Translations under genes and position numbers: made by a program
Notes under the pieces: model-generated
Database searches by the model: none
What the model was told of the DNA's origin: nothing
The model's input: the letters and a program-made list of their open reading frames with translations, nothing else
From: Chthonomonadaceae bacterium
Lineage (GTDB): Bacteria; Armatimonadota; Chthonomonadetes; Chthonomonadales; Chthonomonadaceae
NCBI GenBank assembly: GCA_025355115.1
Contig: JANXLO010000681.1
Location: forward strand, 1-10,741
Direction: 5' to 3'
DNA: 10,741 nt
In this document: positions 2,705-10,024 of the stretch, piece after piece
Layout: every line of letters begins with the position of its first letter
Numbering within the stretch: the first letter of the stretch is position 1

Positions 2705-5233
2705 TCATGGCTTCTGAGGGCCATCTACTGCGGCAAGGGCGGGTTGGGACCGGGGTTCGACGCCAAGCAGGTTTTTGACGAAGAAGTCCTGAAGGCGGCG
2801 TCTGCCGTAGGGCGTCCCTGCGACGCCGTGTCCGGTGCCCGGAGAGACGAGCAGCTCGAAATCCTTGTCGGCCTTAATGAGGGCATCGACCACCTGCATC
2901 GTCGAGGCGGGATCGACGTTCGTGTCCATCTCGCCGACCATGAGCAGCAGCTTCCCTTGAAGTTTGTGCGCGAGCGTCACGTTGGACTGCTCGGCGTAGT
3001 GAGGGCCGACCGGCCAGCCCATCCACTGCTCGTTCCACCAGATTTTGTCCATGCGGTTGTCGTGGCAGCCGCAGTCCGCGACGCCCACTTTGTAGAAATC
3101 TCCGTGCTGGAGCAGGCCTCCCAGCGCGTTCTGCCCACCCGCCGAGCCTCCGTAGATGCCCACTCTCGTCAAATCCATATAGGGGTATTTCGCGCCTGCG
3201 GCTTTTATCCAGAGCATGCGGTCGGGGAAGCCTGCGTCTCCGAGGTTCTTCCAGCAAACGTCGTGGAACGCCTTGGAGCGGTCGTTGGTTCCCATGCCGT
3301 CGATCTGCACAACGATGAAGCCTAGCTCCGCCATCTGCTGCAGCCCCGAGCCTGGCGTGAAGCTCTTTGGGACGAACGATCCCTGCGGTCCCGCGTAGAT
3401 GTCCTCGATAACGGGGTATTTGCGTTTGGAGTCGAAGTTGGAGGGGCGCATGATGACGCCGTAGATATCCGTGGCTCCGTCGCGCCCTTTCGACACGAAC
3501 CGCTCGGGGTATCTCCACCCCGTCGCCAGTAGTGCGGATGCGTCTCCGCGCTCCAGATCGATGACCTTCTTGCCACTGTCCGAGCGGCGCAGTTCGGTGA
3601 CGGGCGGCATATCCACACGTGAGTAGGTGTCCACGAAATAGGCGTTGTCCGGCGACCAGCTGATCGAGTGATTCCCATCGCCTTCCGTCAGCACGTTAAG
3701 GCCCGTTCCGTCGAAATTCACGCGGCAGAAGTGAACGTAGTAGGGATCCTGTCCCGGCCGGATCCCTCCCGCACGAAACCAAATCTGCCGCTTCTTCTCG
3801 TCCACCCTGTCGACACCCCTCACGACCCAGTCCCCTTTCGTGATCTGGCTTTTGACTTTCCCTGTTGCGGTGTCGTAGAGGTAGAGATGATTCCAGCCAT
3901 CGCGCTCCGACATCCAGATCGCCTCATGTGAGGCTTCCATCTGATGCAGATAGACCTTGTAGTTCCAGTCGATAAAGGTCTTCTGTGTCTCTTCGATGAC
4001 CGTCACGGCCTTGCCGGTCTCCGCATCGACCGCGATAAGCCGCATGATCAGGTGCCCGCGCTGATTGTAGAGGAACGTGAATCTCTTGCCGTCCGGCTGC
4101 CACTGGAGGCGCGATATCTCCCACGGGTTGAGAAACAAGTCGTCCGAGATGGGAATATCACGCCTGGCAGCAGGATCGAACAGGTGCGGGCGTGAATGAG
4201 CGATCCGGTCGCCAGGCTTCAGGTAGTCAGTAGAGTGCAGCTTCGGCTGAACCTGATCGCGCGGGGAGGACTCGACAAAATAGACCTTGTGCTCCTGAGC
4301 GGGAACCGTCTTGAAAAGGACAAATTTGCTGCCGTCGGGCGACCATCTCGGCTCCCCTTCGTAGGCGTCCTGCGCCGATCCATCCTGAGTGAGCTGAGTC
4401 TCCGCCCCACTGCCCGCCTCGCGCAAAAAGACGTTGTTCGATTTGACGAACGCAGACCATTTACGTTCAGGAGCGGATCGGCGCTCTGTGGCAGCGGACA
4501 CAGTGCGTTTGGCCTGTCCGTCGATCACTGCAAGGAGCGGCATCTCCCTCCCAACGAAAGCGGCTAGAGGCTTGCCGCTCTTCGCTGTGGCTAGCCAAAG
4601 ATGCCCGACATAGGTTGGGTGCACACTCGTCGCGCCGGGACTCAAGGTGTCGTAGGCGCGCCGCTGACCCTCGGTGTCCACCCACCAGAGCGTTAGATCC
4701 GACTTAGAGCTGTTGAGAAAAGTGAGGAGCGTCGCTTCAGTGCCGTTGACGGAGCCGCGAGGCATATCCTCAGGAGGGATGGCCTGCGCCCGTCCAAGCG
4801 TCTCCGTCGACGGCTTGACTTCGTATGTGTTCAGGTCACAGGCGTAGCTCTTTTCTTGTATCTGCACCAGCATCACTGGCCGATCCGCCACGAAGGCGAT
4901 TCGATCCACGGGCAGTCTCTCTGCAGAGACATCCCTCCCCAGCACTTTCGACAGCCCTGCGGCAAGACGCGCATGATCGAACGCAGGCTTGCGCATCGGC
5001 CCAGCCGAGTCGACAAGAATGAACTCCCGCTGACCCCCCGCAAGATCGTTGCGGTACCAGAATCGGTCGGTGCCCGCGATCCAGTTGGGTCTGACGGAGG
5101 CGCGAAAAACCTTGCCATTGACGCGCTGGCCAAGGCTGTTGGCCCGTGCGTAGTCGGCGCGAGTTCCCTGCGCGCGACCCAAAGTGAGAAGAGCCATTGG
5201 CAGAATTACCGTGAGCGGAAGTGCAAGCCTCAT
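2705..5233 (-). CDS. Secreted S9 family (DPP-IV-like) serine peptidase with VHL-type beta domain
   Basis: 842 residues counted from ATG 5233; a TTG three bases upstream is an alternative, and the purine-rich GGGAAAGAG at 5241-5249 serves either. The N-terminus is a signal peptide (Lys/Arg-poor hydrophobic run to about residue 21), so the enzyme is exported. The middle is a beta-propeller with repeated WSPDG/WQPDG blades (near 297-301, 378-382 and 526-530) and the SERDGWNHLYLYD motif (442-454). The C-terminal alpha/beta hydrolase starts near residue 585. Its catalytic triad is Ser697 in GGSAGG, Asp770 in GEMDTNV and His802 in GTGHGV. Family members remove dipeptides or cleave short peptides, often after proline. 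The DW-YEEE glutamate motif that binds the free amino end in true DPP-IV is not seen, so dipeptidyl-peptidase specificity is unproven. A VHL-like domain is inserted at about 157-229. The gene stands alone, and a convincing promoter is not visible in the 200 bp upstream. Confidence 0.92.
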   Translation of the reverse strand: MRLALPLTVILPMALLTLGRAQGTRADYARANSLGQRVNGKVFRASVRPNWIAGTDRFWYRNDLAGGQREFILVDSAGPMRKPAFDHARLAAGLSKVLGRDVSAERLPVDRIAFVADRPVMLVQIQEKSYACDLNTYEVKPSTETLGRAQAIPPEDMPRGSVNGTEATLLTFLNSSKSDLTLWWVDTEGQRRAYDTLSPGATSVHPTYVGHLWLATAKSGKPLAAFVGREMPLLAVIDGQAKRTVSAATERRSAPERKWSAFVKSNNVFLREAGSGAETQLTQDGSAQDAYEGEPRWSPDGSKFVLFKTVPAQEHKVYFVESSPRDQVQPKLHSTDYLKPGDRIAHSRPHLFDPAARRDIPISDDLFLNPWEISRLQWQPDGKRFTFLYNQRGHLIMRLIAVDAETGKAVTVIEETQKTFIDWNYKVYLHQMEASHEAIWMSERDGWNHLYLYDTATGKVKSQITKGDWVVRGVDRVDEKKRQIWFRAGGIRPGQDPYYVHFCRVNFDGTGLNVLTEGDGNHSISWSPDNAYFVDTYSRVDMPPVTELRRSDSGKKVIDLERGDASALLATGWRYPERFVSKGRDGATDIYGVIMRPSNFDSKRKYPVIEDIYAGPQGSFVPKSFTPGSGLQQMAELGFIVVQIDGMGTNDRSKAFHDVCWKNLGDAGFPDRMLWIKAAGAKYPYMDLTRVGIYGGSAGGQNALGGLLQHGDFYKVGVADCGCHDNRMDKIWWNEQWMGWPVGPHYAEQSNVTLAHKLQGKLLLMVGEMDTNVDPASTMQVVDALIKADKDFELLVSPGTGHGVAGTPYGRRRLQDFFVKNLLGVEPRSQPALAAVDGPQKP
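4547..4765 (-). other. VHL-type beta domain inside the S9 peptidase
   Basis: Residues about 157-229 of the peptidase (ATG numbering) resemble the beta domain of the von Hippel-Lindau protein. SVN near the start, F-N (172-174), WW-D-EG (183-189), AYDTLSPG (193-200) and TYVGHLWL (207-214) line up with pVHL RSVN, FCN, VWLNFDG, PYPTLPPG and SYRGHLWL. The stretch equivalent to pVHL 88-117 aligns without a gap. Trp184, Tyr194, Thr207, His211 and Trp213 fall on pVHL Trp88, Tyr98, Ser111, His115 and Trp117, which form the hydroxyproline pocket. The alignment is from memory of the human sequence. The function in bacteria is inferred only: binding of peptide substrate, perhaps proline- or hydroxyproline-rich, beside the catalytic module. 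Confidence 0.8.
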
Positions 5234-5435: not shown

Positions 5436-5507
5436 GCGGGAGTAACTCAGTGGTAGAGTGCCATCCTTCCAAGTTGGAAGTCGCGAGTCCGAATCTCGTC
5501 TCCCGCT
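5436..5507 (+). tRNA. tRNA-Gly (anticodon TCC)
   Basis: A full cloverleaf: acceptor GCGGGAG (5436-5442) pairs with CTCCCGC (5500-5506), the D arm is ACTC/GAGT with GG in the loop, and the anticodon loop CTTCCAA has TCC at 5468-5470. The T stem GCGAG/CTCGT and discriminator T5507 complete it. CCA is not encoded. Two oddities stand out. The T loop reads TCCGAAT, so the base normally modified to pseudouridine 55 is C. The anticodon stem CCATC/GTTGG has a T-T mismatch at positions 30-40. It decodes GGA/GGG glycine codons if functional. It is first in a two-tRNA transcript. Confidence 0.9.
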
Positions 5508-5513
5508 TTCCTT

Positions 5514-5586
5514 GCCCTCGTAGCTCAGTGGATAGAGCATTCGCCTTCTAAGCGAATGGCCGCAAGTTCGAGCCTTGCCGGGGGTA
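5514..5586 (+). tRNA. tRNA-Arg (anticodon TCT)
   Basis: A full cloverleaf six bases after tRNA-Gly. Acceptor GCCCTCG (5514-5520) faces CGGGGGT (5579-5585), with G-T wobble at 1-72 and T-G at 5-68. The D arm is GCTC/GAGC. The anticodon stem TTCGC/GCGAA is perfect, with loop CTTCTAA giving TCT at 5547-5549. The T stem GCAAG/CTTGC is perfect, with the normal loop TTCGAGC. Discriminator A5586 fits arginine tRNAs. CCA is not encoded. It reads AGA (and AGG by wobble). Confidence 0.92.
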
Positions 5587-5615
5587 TATACTCAGCAAGG
5601 CGGCAATTAATAGAC

Positions 5616-5649
5616 AGGAAGCCCGCTCATTCAGGTGAGCGGGCTTCCT
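5616..5649 (+). terminator. 14 bp perfect hairpin after the tRNA pair
   Basis: AGGAAGCCCGCTCA (5616-5629) and TGAGCGGGCTTCCT (5636-5649) form a perfect, GC-rich 14 bp stem with a six-base loop (5630-5635). It starts 30 bases after tRNA-Arg and ends 20 bases before the glpK ATG. Position and stability suggest termination of the tRNA transcript. However, no T tract follows on either strand, so it may instead be a processing or attenuation element in the glpK leader. Confidence 0.5.
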
Positions 5650-5669
5650 CACGATTGGACGTGGGTCAG

Positions 5670-7172
5670 ATGAAACGATTCGTGCTGGCGTTGGATCAGG
5701 GGACGACTAGTTCGCGGGCCATCCTTTTCGACGAGGCGGGGACAATCTGCGGGGTGGAACAGCAGGAGTATGCTCAGCACTACCCGCAGCCAGCCTGGGT
5801 GGAACATGCCCCGGAGGACATCTGGACGAGTCAGGCGGGCGCGGTCGAAAAGCTGCTGCGCACTCACAACGTCTCTGCCTCCGAGATCGCGGCTCTCGGC
5901 ATCGCCAATCAGCGGGAGACCACGATCCTGTGGGAGCGCGCGACGGGGCGGCCTGTCGCGAACGCCATCGTCTGGCAGGATAGGCGGACGGCCCCGCTCT
6001 GCGAGCGCCTCCGATCCGACGGCTGTGAGCCGCTGTTTCGCGAGCGAACGGGCCTGCCGCTCGATCCCTACTTCTCCGGCACGAAAGTGCGCTGGCTCCT
6101 TGACGAGATCCCCGGCCTTCGTGAACGCGCCGAGCGCGGCGAGATCGCGTTCGGGACGGTGGATTCCTTTCTGCTGTGGCGGCTCACCGCTGGCCGGGTT
6201 CATGCTACGGACGTCTCCAACGCTTCACGCACGCTTCTCTTCAACCTCCGTACTCGAACGTGGGATGACGACCTGCTCCGACTACTGGACATTCCCCGGG
6301 CGCTGCTCCCCGAAATTCACCCGAGCAGCCATCTCTACGGCGAAACGGAGGCTTCTATCTTTGGAGCTTCCATCCCAATCTCCGGGGTGGCGGGGGATCA
6401 GCATGCGGCGACCTTCGGTCAGGCATGTCACTCTCCTGGCATGGTGAAGAACACCTACGGCACCGGTTGCTTTCTGCTCATGAACACAGGAAATGCTCCG
6501 CAGGCGTCCCGGCACGGCCTGCTCACCACCGTCGGCTGGGAGCTCGATGCGGACGGCGACGTGCAAAAGCCCCCGACAACCTACGCGCTGGAGGGCAGCG
6601 TCTTCGTAGCGGGCGCGGCGGTGCAGTGGCTGAGGGACGAGCTTCAGATCATACGTCACGCCTCGGAAGTCGAGGCGCTCGCGGCCTCAGTGCCGGATAG
6701 CGGCGGGGTGGTGTTTGTCCCTGCGTTTGTGGGCCTGGGCGCGCCGTATTGGGATGCGGGGGCTAGAGGCGCCATATTCGGACTGACGCGCGGCACTGGA
6801 AGAGCGCATATCGCTCGCGCCGCACTAGAGGCGGTCTGCCATCAGACCTACGATGTCCTTGAAGCGATGCGCGCCGACAGCGGCCTCCCGATCCGCGAAC
6901 TGCGCGTTGACGGCGGCATGACGACCAACAACTCTCTCCTCCAAATGCAAGCCGATCTCCTAGGCGCTACCGTCATTCGGCCCGCGGTGACGGAGACGAC
7001 AGCATTAGGCGCCGCCTATCTCGCTGGCCTCGCCGTAGGTTTCTGGCACGACACCGCACAAATTGGCTCGCAGTGGCGAGCAGACGCCCGCTTTACTCCT
7101 GCCATGAGCGAAGATCACCGTCAATCTCTCCGCGCCAACTGGAGCCAGGCCGTCGCACGAGTCCGCTCATAA
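5670..7172 (+). CDS. glpK: Glycerol kinase
   Basis: 500 residues, against about 500 for the family. It phosphorylates glycerol to sn-glycerol 3-phosphate with ATP in the cytoplasm, trapping glycerol for catabolism or lipid synthesis. The N-terminal FGGY domain has the phosphate loop DQGTTSSR (9-16). The glycerol-contacting residues Arg82-Glu83 (NQRETT), Tyr134 and Asp243-Gln244 ([10 protein letters not shown]) are kept. FGGY signature [13 protein letters not shown] (134-146), the ATP-site YGTGCF (263-268) and DGGMTTNN near the C-terminus are also present. The loop that HPr phosphorylates in Gram-positive kinases lacks its histidine here, so PTS activation is unlikely. ATG 5670 is chosen because [15 protein letters not shown] matches the family start. 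A longer start at 5556 would overlap tRNA-Arg. The ribosome site is weak. No glpF or glpD is adjacent. The gene converges on the HAD gene 28 bp away. Confidence 0.97.
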
Positions 7173-8668: not shown

Positions 8669-10024
8669 TCATCGCTGAAGCGTGGTGGTGTGAAGCAGCT
8701 TGCCCTGCTTGGCGTCCCAGAAGAAGACTTTGCCGTCTTGAGTTCCAGCAGCGACCGTCTGGTTGTCCGCGCCAATCGCGACTGCATAGACCCAGTCCTG
8801 CGGGTCTTTCATCTCTTGCTTCTGGTTGGAGCCATCGCCATTGAAGACCCGAACACGGCTGTTCGAGGCCCCATAGACCAGCAGGCTGCCGTCCGGGCTG
8901 AAGGCACATGCGTTGATCGCGTCTCCCTCGCCCTGTTGCCGCAGCGGATTTTCCATCTTGCCGATCTCGACTTTCCAGACGCGCATCTGCCGGTCGGCAC
9001 TCGCCGTCGCCAGAAGAGTGCCATCCCGATTGAATGCCACCTGTGTCACCGAGTCCTGATGCGCGGTGAGAGAGGCGACGCGCTTATAGTCCGTCGTCTG
9101 AAAAAGCTTGACGCTCCGGTCACCGCTGCCCGTCGCCAGCAGCTTTCCGTCCGGCGAGTAGGCGACGCCAAATACGGCTTCAGCGTGGTCCTTGATCGTG
9201 CGAACGGACTGCCCGGTGTCTGCGTTCCAGATGCGAACCGTTTTGTCGAGAGAGCCGGAGGCGAGCTCATGCGTATTCGGGCGGAAGGCGACCGCATAGA
9301 CGACCTCGGCATGCTCGCCAAGCGTACGAACGGGCTTCCATGTAGCAGGGTCTAAGAGGACGATCTCGCCCTTCATTCCGGGAGTCCCGCCGCCCGCCGC
9401 AAGCATTTTGCCGTCGCTGCTCCATGCCAGAGCCTGCACTTGATCAGTAGGTCCAGAGATTGTCTTCGTTACTTCACCGGTCACGGAATTGAGCAGGCGC
9501 ACGCACCGGAAGCCGCCCACCGCGAGCATTTTGCCGTCCGGTGAGTACGCCAGAGCGGTTACAGGGGCAGGAAGATTTTGCGCGGCTGTCGAGTGGCTCA
9601 GCAGCGGCGCGGGGGTTTTCCCGCCAGTAGTCGGCACAGGCATCAGCATGGTGTCGACTTTCGCGCCCTCGTCGATCCAACGGCGAATGACCGCGATCTT
9701 CTCGAGATCGATGGCGCCGTTGGGAGGCATCTTCGGCTTGAGCTCACCGGTCATGTAGAGGACAAGTGTGCTCTGGGCTCCCTTGCTAACCACGATGGCC
9801 GCTCCATGCCGCCCCCCGCCGATCATGCGGTCACGGGTCTCCAGCGAGTAACCGCTCGCCGGGTTAGCCCCGCCGTGACAGCCAGCACACTGCGTCTTCA
9901 GCAACGGCAGAACCTGCTTGCTGAACACGACGGGCGGCGCCGCACTAACAGGCCCGCCGAGCCCTGCAATCAGGCTCAAAATCAGACAGACTAACAGAGA
10001 TTTCGACATCATACCGCAACTCAT
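8669..10024 (-). CDS. Secreted cytochrome c domain fused to seven WD40 repeats
   Basis: 451 residues from ATG 10024. A GGAG directly touches that ATG, so ATG 10012 or 10009 (residues 5-6) may be the true start; both leave an intact signal peptide (to about Ala28, PVSA|APP). The heme-binding motif CAGCH is at 46-50 and the likely axial Met99 is in KPKMPPNG, followed by IRRWIDEGA (113-121). This is the planctomycete-type (PSCyt1-like) domain. Residues about 150-451 contain seven WD40 units of the form V-ALAYSPDGKMLA-GG-...-VRLL, enough for one complete seven-blade propeller. The predicted role is a periplasmic single-heme electron carrier with a protein-binding propeller; partner and redox pathway are unknown. 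It lies between the enolase-superfamily gene (30 bp upstream) and the IPT/PPC gene. Confidence 0.88.
   Translation of the reverse strand: MSCGMMSKSLLVCLILSLIAGLGGPVSAAPPVVFSKQVLPLLKTQCAGCHGGANPASGYSLETRDRMIGGGRHGAAIVVSKGAQSTLVLYMTGELKPKMPPNGAIDLEKIAVIRRWIDEGAKVDTMLMPVPTTGGKTPAPLLSHSTAAQNLPAPVTALAYSPDGKMLAVGGFRCVRLLNSVTGEVTKTISGPTDQVQALAWSSDGKMLAAGGGTPGMKGEIVLLDPATWKPVRTLGEHAEVVYAVAFRPNTHELASGSLDKTVRIWNADTGQSVRTIKDHAEAVFGVAYSPDGKLLATGSGDRSVKLFQTTDYKRVASLTAHQDSVTQVAFNRDGTLLATASADRQMRVWKVEIGKMENPLRQQGEGDAINACAFSPDGSLLVYGASNSRVRVFNGDGSNQKQEMKDPQDWVYAVAIGADNQTVAAGTQDGKVFFWDAKQGKLLHTTTLQR

Follow-up and report, generated by a model that had tools for sequence, protein, structure and literature searches.

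On the minus strand of the window (the whole stretch of DNA analysed here, 10,741 nucleotides of an Armatimonadota contig) lies a gene for an S9B-type peptidase into which a VHL beta domain is inserted; its features are collected in Table 1. The open reading frame is listed with a TTG start, ATG being its second codon. The Pfam VHL profile (PF01847) matched the protein with an E-value of 2.9e-7 and 30.8 bits (cut-off 21) over residues 162–224, in frame at nt 4565–4753. The first-pass annotation, made from the sequence, had proposed a VHL beta domain at 4547–4765 and had named a Pfam VHL search without a significant match as grounds for dropping it; the match lies inside that segment and above the curated cut-off, and the proposal stands.

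Table 1. Features of the window on the minus strand, with the G032 neighbourhood discussed in the text (coordinates within the window unless a locus is named)
Feature	Position	Strand	Basis or remark
S9B-type peptidase with inserted VHL beta domain, 843 aa	2705..5236	-	
Signal-peptide-like N-terminus, residues 2–23	5168..5233	-	sequence and model helix 5–19
Propeller blades 1–2 (probable numbering), residues 58–143	4808..5065	-	strand order in the model
VHL beta domain, residues 162–238, seven strands	4523..4753	-	
W185 = pVHL W88	4682..4684	-	gapless alignment; W in 70/70 domains
Y195 = pVHL Y98	4652..4654	-	Y in 70/70 domains
T208 = pVHL S111	4613..4615	-	Thr 62/70, Ser 8/70
H212 = pVHL H115	4601..4603	-	H in 70/70; lost in some Planctomycetota domains
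W214 = pVHL W117	4595..4597	-	W in 69/70, one Phe
DPPIV_N propeller, residues 253–545	3602..4480	-	PF00930, E 4.6e-47
Peptidase_S9 catalytic domain, residues 632–820, S698/D771/H803	2777..3343	-	PF00326, E 9.7e-46
cis-3-hydroxy-L-proline dehydratase-like enolase, cut by contig end	10055..10720	-	NF043002, E 3e-90
ArsR-type HTH–VHL fusion and trans-4-hydroxy-L-proline dehydratase neighbourhood, G032	L224:2475-3284; L249:8375-13910	-	

A profile built from 20 bacterial VHL domains and searched against the PDB returned VHL as the sole significant family (24 VHL sequences, E 7.4e-12 to 9.4e-11), with a single non-VHL row at E 0.96. For the full-length model, VHL was absent among the best 50 structure matches listed; a list of this kind can be filled by one domain, hence the VHL domain was modelled alone. 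It has the VHL beta-sandwich fold, and both fold and gapless register agree with pVHL. Among Pfam matches up to E 0.1 no second VHL-type family (alpha domain or elongin C box) was detected, and the domain runs on into the propeller. The presence of a genuine VHL beta domain with pocket residues in the window is near certain.

The rest of the protein has the propeller and catalytic triad of the S9B / DPP IV family, and the triad is invariant in all 54 aligned proteins. The claimed coupling of the VHL domain to S9 catalysis is borne out by this invariant triad. The signal-like N-terminus suggests that the peptidase is exported. DPP IV anchors the N-terminus of its substrate through a double-Glu motif and prefers Pro or Ala at P1, as described in the available text of PMC5807507. 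Residues 283–298, before WSPDG, are the probable place of this motif; no conserved Glu pair occurs there in the 54 sequences. Substrates may therefore be positioned otherwise than in DPP IV, and the VHL domain is a candidate for the substrate-placing role of the motif. Its insertion after blade 2 would direct it toward the side opening described in the same text of PMC5807507.

Elsewhere in the window, tRNA-Gly(tcc) and tRNA-Arg(tct) (5436-5587, plus strand) separate the peptidase from a glycerol-kinase-like FGGY gene, whose listed ORF (5556-7172) overlaps the second tRNA and therefore probably starts further in. A CxxCH-bearing segment followed by WD40 repeats occupies 8669-10024 on the minus strand.

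Conservation of the pocket and spread of VHL in bacteria

Animal oxygen sensing centres on the recognition of hydroxyproline by VHL, and VHL-based degraders chiefly exploit the same interaction. In pVHL, as set out in the accessible part of PMC9528729, the hydroxyl of hydroxyproline bonds S111 and H115, the Y98 hydroxyl bonds the hydroxyproline carbonyl, the H110 backbone carbonyl bonds an amide NH, and W88 and W117 contribute, with other side chains, to the shape of the site. The five side-chain positions align without gaps to W185, Y195, T208, H212 and W214 of the window protein with Thr in place of Ser111, just as the first-pass annotation had read them.

Genome searches gave 74 distinct bacterial VHL domains, of which four cut at the edges of the fetched regions were dropped and 70 analysed. 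All five pocket columns are within the seven least variable of 67, a ranking with a chance of 2.2e-6 by a simple count that ignores phylogeny and carries some bias from the collection of domains with VHL profiles. The pocket is conserved as a unit, its columns being nearly invariant while their neighbours vary, in line with the earlier proposal. Position 111 is only ever Thr or Ser, hence a hydroxyl is kept. N78 is also invariant; no such conservation is seen at the pVHL contacts N67, R69 and F91. The window protein has Pro at the position of H110, which still provides the backbone carbonyl; judging from these substitutions, recognition of the flanking residues appears to differ from that of pVHL. 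Among 19 distinct domains found via the peptidase part, with VHL then located by a purpose-built profile, W88 and Y98 are kept in 19/19, and, where the position is present, H115 in 15/15 and W117 in 14/15. This pattern of a fixed pocket and a variable F91 is the same as in animal VHL, where the pocket positions are almost invariant and the adjacent F91 varies (PMC6650433, in the text available).

Of the 291 genomes searched in the window's phylum (Armatimonadota), 63 have a PF01847 match, as do 11 of 194 Verrucomicrobiota genomes and 22 of 179 genomes in a Planctomycetota sample. A pattern scan of genome contigs added 269 stretches, 80 of which were kept as named loci, mostly from Verrucomicrobiota and Planctomycetota and with flanks of up to 4 kb. 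The scan pattern, taken from a nine-sequence alignment, fixes Q-H-T-[FY]-x-G-H-V-W, hence these 80 loci are excluded as evidence for positions 109–111 and 114–117. Two MAG records, L088 under the name Akkermansia muciniphila and L095 under that of Klebsiella pneumoniae, have VHL domains close to that of the Verrucomicrobiales locus L050, and their titles look doubtful.

VHL on an S9 peptidase is a conserved architecture and not a peculiarity of one protein. Two layouts occur: in one, VHL precedes the main propeller within the peptidase, and in the other it follows the catalytic domain. A quick tree of peptidase domains requires six layout changes, with well-supported branches forcing at least two per label; one member (L140) counted as VHL-less only because its contig is cut, and the tree without it still needs six. 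Long C-terminal extensions were seen in the VHL peptidases of L064, L067, L097 and L269, the last of which resembles a DUF885 protein adjoining an HExxH–VHL gene in L217.

The domain is also found outside S9 peptidases. Nine HExxH metallopeptidase-like proteins with hydrophobic N-termini, three from Armatimonadota and six from Planctomycetota (L217, L219, L220, L253-L258), carry a C-terminal VHL domain with H115 in 9/9 and Y98 in 8/9; no Pfam family exceeded its cut-off in the catalytic part of the four scanned (L217, L220, L253, L254), and none of the hydroxyproline marker genes was found in the six Planctomycetota regions. Further Planctomycetota VHL domains are on sulfatase, esterase, LRR and kinase proteins, and three VHL-rich genomes (G593, G646, G677) have lost H115 on sulfatases, an acetylesterase-type enzyme and an LRR protein. 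Taken together, the Planctomycetota regions hold 23 domains, 10 of which lack H115. Ala or Asn stands in its place in 9 of the 13 domains found outside recognised peptidases (seven of these 13 proteins were scanned with Pfam) and in one of the four on S9 proteins; all six HExxH proteins keep the histidine. Y98 has changed in two of the 23 domains. In the loci from VHL-rich Planctomycetota genomes (L259-L267), where H115 is mostly Ala or Asn, the scanned proteins include sulfatases, a SASA esterase and an LRR protein, and L259 has its H115-replaced domain on an S9 peptidase. At L268:4833-6479 (minus strand) a Ser/Thr kinase with MORN repeats bears a VHL domain retaining the pocket residues.

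These variants bear on whether the aromatic residues are kept merely for the fold, the domain being a structural or general envelope-binding accessory whose pocket binds nothing, or something else. W88, W117 and T/S111 stay in 23/23 Planctomycetota domains on such diverse proteins, even where H115 is gone, and W117 belongs to the aromatic core of pVHL in the account given in the available text of PMC3688787, both of which fit this explanation. However, the losses mean that the fold can do without H115, yet the residue is present in 70/70 domains elsewhere, a retention that suggests use and argues against a purely structural cause. Furthermore, across the 70 domains the pocket is less variable than F76, a position of the core, and the Y98H mutant of pVHL is wild-type-like in modelled structure and fluorescence (PMC3688787, same text). 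We therefore regard the structural explanation as unlikely.

Hydroxyproline genes near VHL proteins

The window itself offers little linkage. Its peptidase gene lies outside any hydroxyproline operon, and its genome (74% complete) has no match to PF05544, the proline racemase family, which includes 4-hydroxyproline 2-epimerase. The only hydroxyproline-type gene on the contig is the cis-3-hydroxy-L-proline dehydratase-like enolase, 4.8 kb from the peptidase with unrelated genes between; its NF043002 match has 302.7 bits, below the cut-off of 500, with 219 of 366 profile positions present. A dehydratase of this kind has been described from Labrenzia (PMC5144071, in the part available). Just 8 of 28 genomes with this family also have VHL, which is no enrichment, so that the proximity in the window is weak evidence; the window is also the only case listed with both families on one contig within 10 kb. 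The enolase is a possible functional neighbour of the peptidase.

In relatives the linkage is much closer. PF05544 was searched in 291 Armatimonadota genomes, and 151 of these were also searched for the peptidase. In genomes with a strong PF05544 match, the epimerase family lies within 10 kb of the peptidase for 13 of 25 VHL-bearing members. None of the 42 distant S9 paralogs has it so near (Fisher 2e-7 for this comparison), and one of the ten VHL-less members does (p = 0.028, uncorrected). The linked cases span only five families and seven genera and include some close relatives, hence these p-values are optimistic. Members of either layout, internal or C-terminal, are among those linked, and in G068-G071 the PF05544 and peptidase matches are 30–39 bp apart. 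At the level of whole genomes, a strong PF05544 match accompanies VHL in 34 of 63 genomes vs 60 of 228 others (p = 6e-5, uncorrected). The first-pass annotation had proposed docking of hydroxyproline- or proline-rich peptides from the pocket residues; the gene linkage in relatives goes beyond that proposal and strengthens it.

Twenty regions were fetched, 15 chosen for a nearby epimerase and five without one. They contain the epimerase (n = 15), a DAO-type oxidase (n = 12), a DHDPS-type gene (n = 12) and an M24 peptidase (n = 4), with none of these in four. All 15 clustered epimerases keep the motifs MCGHG and CGTGTSA, which presumably hold the two catalytic cysteines. For two scanned epimerases the best NCBIfam name is 4-hydroxyproline epimerase (376 and 327 bits, below the cut-off of 442), and one M24 gene is named Xaa-Pro aminopeptidase, also below cut-off. 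An aldehyde dehydrogenase is found in three regions (L235, L236 and the VHL-less L243). Adjoining a VHL peptidase, the gene at L244:3069-4394 (plus strand) was assigned over cut-off to NCBIfam nickel pincer cofactor-dependent isomerase group 22.

The linkage is seen less elsewhere. Any of five hydroxyproline marker genes occurs at just 5 of the 80 named loci, within flanks of up to 4 kb, and PF05544 shows no clear enrichment in the Verrucomicrobiota sample (2 of 11 VHL genomes vs 14 of 183 others). Among named-locus genomes it is present in 25 of 46, a non-random set representing 46 of the 80 loci.

A second link comes from a regulator. In G032 a 270-aa protein combines an ArsR-type HTH (NF033788, 56.8 bits, cut-off 55) with a C-terminal VHL domain (24.6 bits, cut-off 21). 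Its gene is about 40 bp from that of a glycyl-radical enzyme named trans-4-hydroxy-L-proline dehydratase (NF043068, 1197 bits, cut-off 1100; PDB 6vxc, E 5e-292). The dehydratase gene abuts a radical-activase-like gene, which we name from its sequence; an M24-like gene follows (591 bits to the M24 seed), all of them sharing one strand. This neighbourhood makes the fusion a candidate hydroxyproline-sensing regulator and ties VHL to hydroxyproline independently of the peptidase, in a single case: no further ArsR–VHL protein was found among the 291 Armatimonadota genomes, and on plasmids the match spans no more than 56% of the query in the 15 listed of 105 records, none of the records reaching 80%.

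The hydroxyproline link could belong to the peptidase family alone, with VHL a passenger that has no role in substrate choice, an explanation which overlaps with the structural one. In the fetched set 11 members of the family have no VHL, and a VHL-less relative (G100) sits in a full hydroxyproline cluster, so VHL is not required for the link. Against this, linkage is commoner with VHL (the 13/25 vs 1/10 above, with its uncorrected p-value), VHL occupies two positions on the peptidase with the repeated layout changes described, and an unrelated VHL regulator has a hydroxyproline link of its own. We judge the passenger explanation improbable.

Proposed role and comparison with known systems

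The reading we favour, and hold to be probable, is that the window encodes an exported S9B-type serine peptidase using hydroxyproline peptides, with VHL as a hydroxyproline-binding exosite. After export of the peptidase, the 4-hydroxyproline ring would lie between W185, Y195 and W214 while T208 and H212 hold its hydroxyl, and capture by VHL would bring the peptide to the S698/D771/H803 active site. Cleaved fragments would pass to an Xaa-Pro aminopeptidase, and free hydroxyproline would follow a route of epimerase, D-hydroxyproline oxidase, deaminase and semialdehyde dehydrogenase. What has been observed is the domain, its fold match, the pocket residues, the triad and the gene linkage in relatives; we infer export, hydroxyproline binding, docking to the active site, the substrate (collagen, plant or algal) and, for the window's own organism, the pathway. 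With the pocket residues and the catabolic genes beside the peptidase in some relatives, the domain may serve to hold peptides with hydroxyproline as a nutrient. The interpretation in the first-pass annotation is, overall, partly supported.

The domain might instead bind proline-rich or otherwise modified peptides with no selectivity for 4-hydroxyproline, on a general post-proline peptidase. The Pro/Ala preference of DPP IV at P1 noted above (PMC5807507, available text), the methyl group that Thr in place of Ser adds to the pocket, and the Xaa-Pro aminopeptidase-type genes beside some members are consistent with this. However, the partner genes are of hydroxyproline families, namely an epimerase with both cysteine motifs and, for ArsR–VHL, a trans-4-hydroxyproline dehydratase, and we consider the lack of selectivity very doubtful.

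More tentatively, VHL could possibly be a bacterial hydroxyproline-recognition module in general, serving as an exosite on S9B and unrelated HExxH peptidases and as a sensor in ArsR–VHL controlling a dehydratase operon, the animal reader being one use of an older nutrient-sensing pocket. If bacteria do feed on hydroxyproline peptides by means of this pocket, that would give a concrete role to the VHL pocket outside animals, a source of selective hydroxyproline-binding domains, a testable idea on the origin of the animal hydroxyproline reader, and a function for a widespread peptidase family with none assigned in the searches made.

The component families are known; their combination and the hydroxyproline linkage did not appear among the literature matches listed. 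Within these, which cover the main texts of largely open-access papers, neither an S9 peptidase with VHL nor hydroxyproline binding by a bacterial VHL is described, and VHL is absent from the main text of PMC4522959 on POP domain architectures. A bacterial ‘VHL domain-containing’ protein in PMC9002001 likewise has Pfam VHL in a bacterium; unlike the peptidases described here, this Litorilituus protein is annotated as tumour-suppressor-like, and the word ‘peptidase’ does not occur in the main text.

The reference for the window domain is the pVHL beta domain (PF01847; 1lm8, the pVHL–HIF complex, and 4awj with a capped hydroxyproline). In contrast to pVHL, the window protein has no detected alpha domain, belongs to a family in which N67, R69 and F91 are not kept, has Thr for S111 and Pro for H110, and carries its VHL domain as part of a peptidase with a signal-like N-terminus. 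With the S9B DPP IV family (human DPP4, PmDAP IV 5yp1 and prolyl tripeptidyl aminopeptidase 2d5l) it shares the propeller, alpha/beta hydrolase and catalytic triad, but the VHL peptidases differ in having no conserved Glu pair in the expected loop and in the inserted or C-terminally fused VHL domain. The clusters of the relatives, with their epimerase, oxidase, DHDPS-type deaminase and aldehyde dehydrogenase type genes, are largely in agreement with the bacterial Lhp clusters described in the available text of PMC5144071. They differ, however, in adding a VHL peptidase and sometimes an M24 peptidase, enzyme functions being assigned by family only, and these peptidases suggest the intake of hydroxyproline as peptides.
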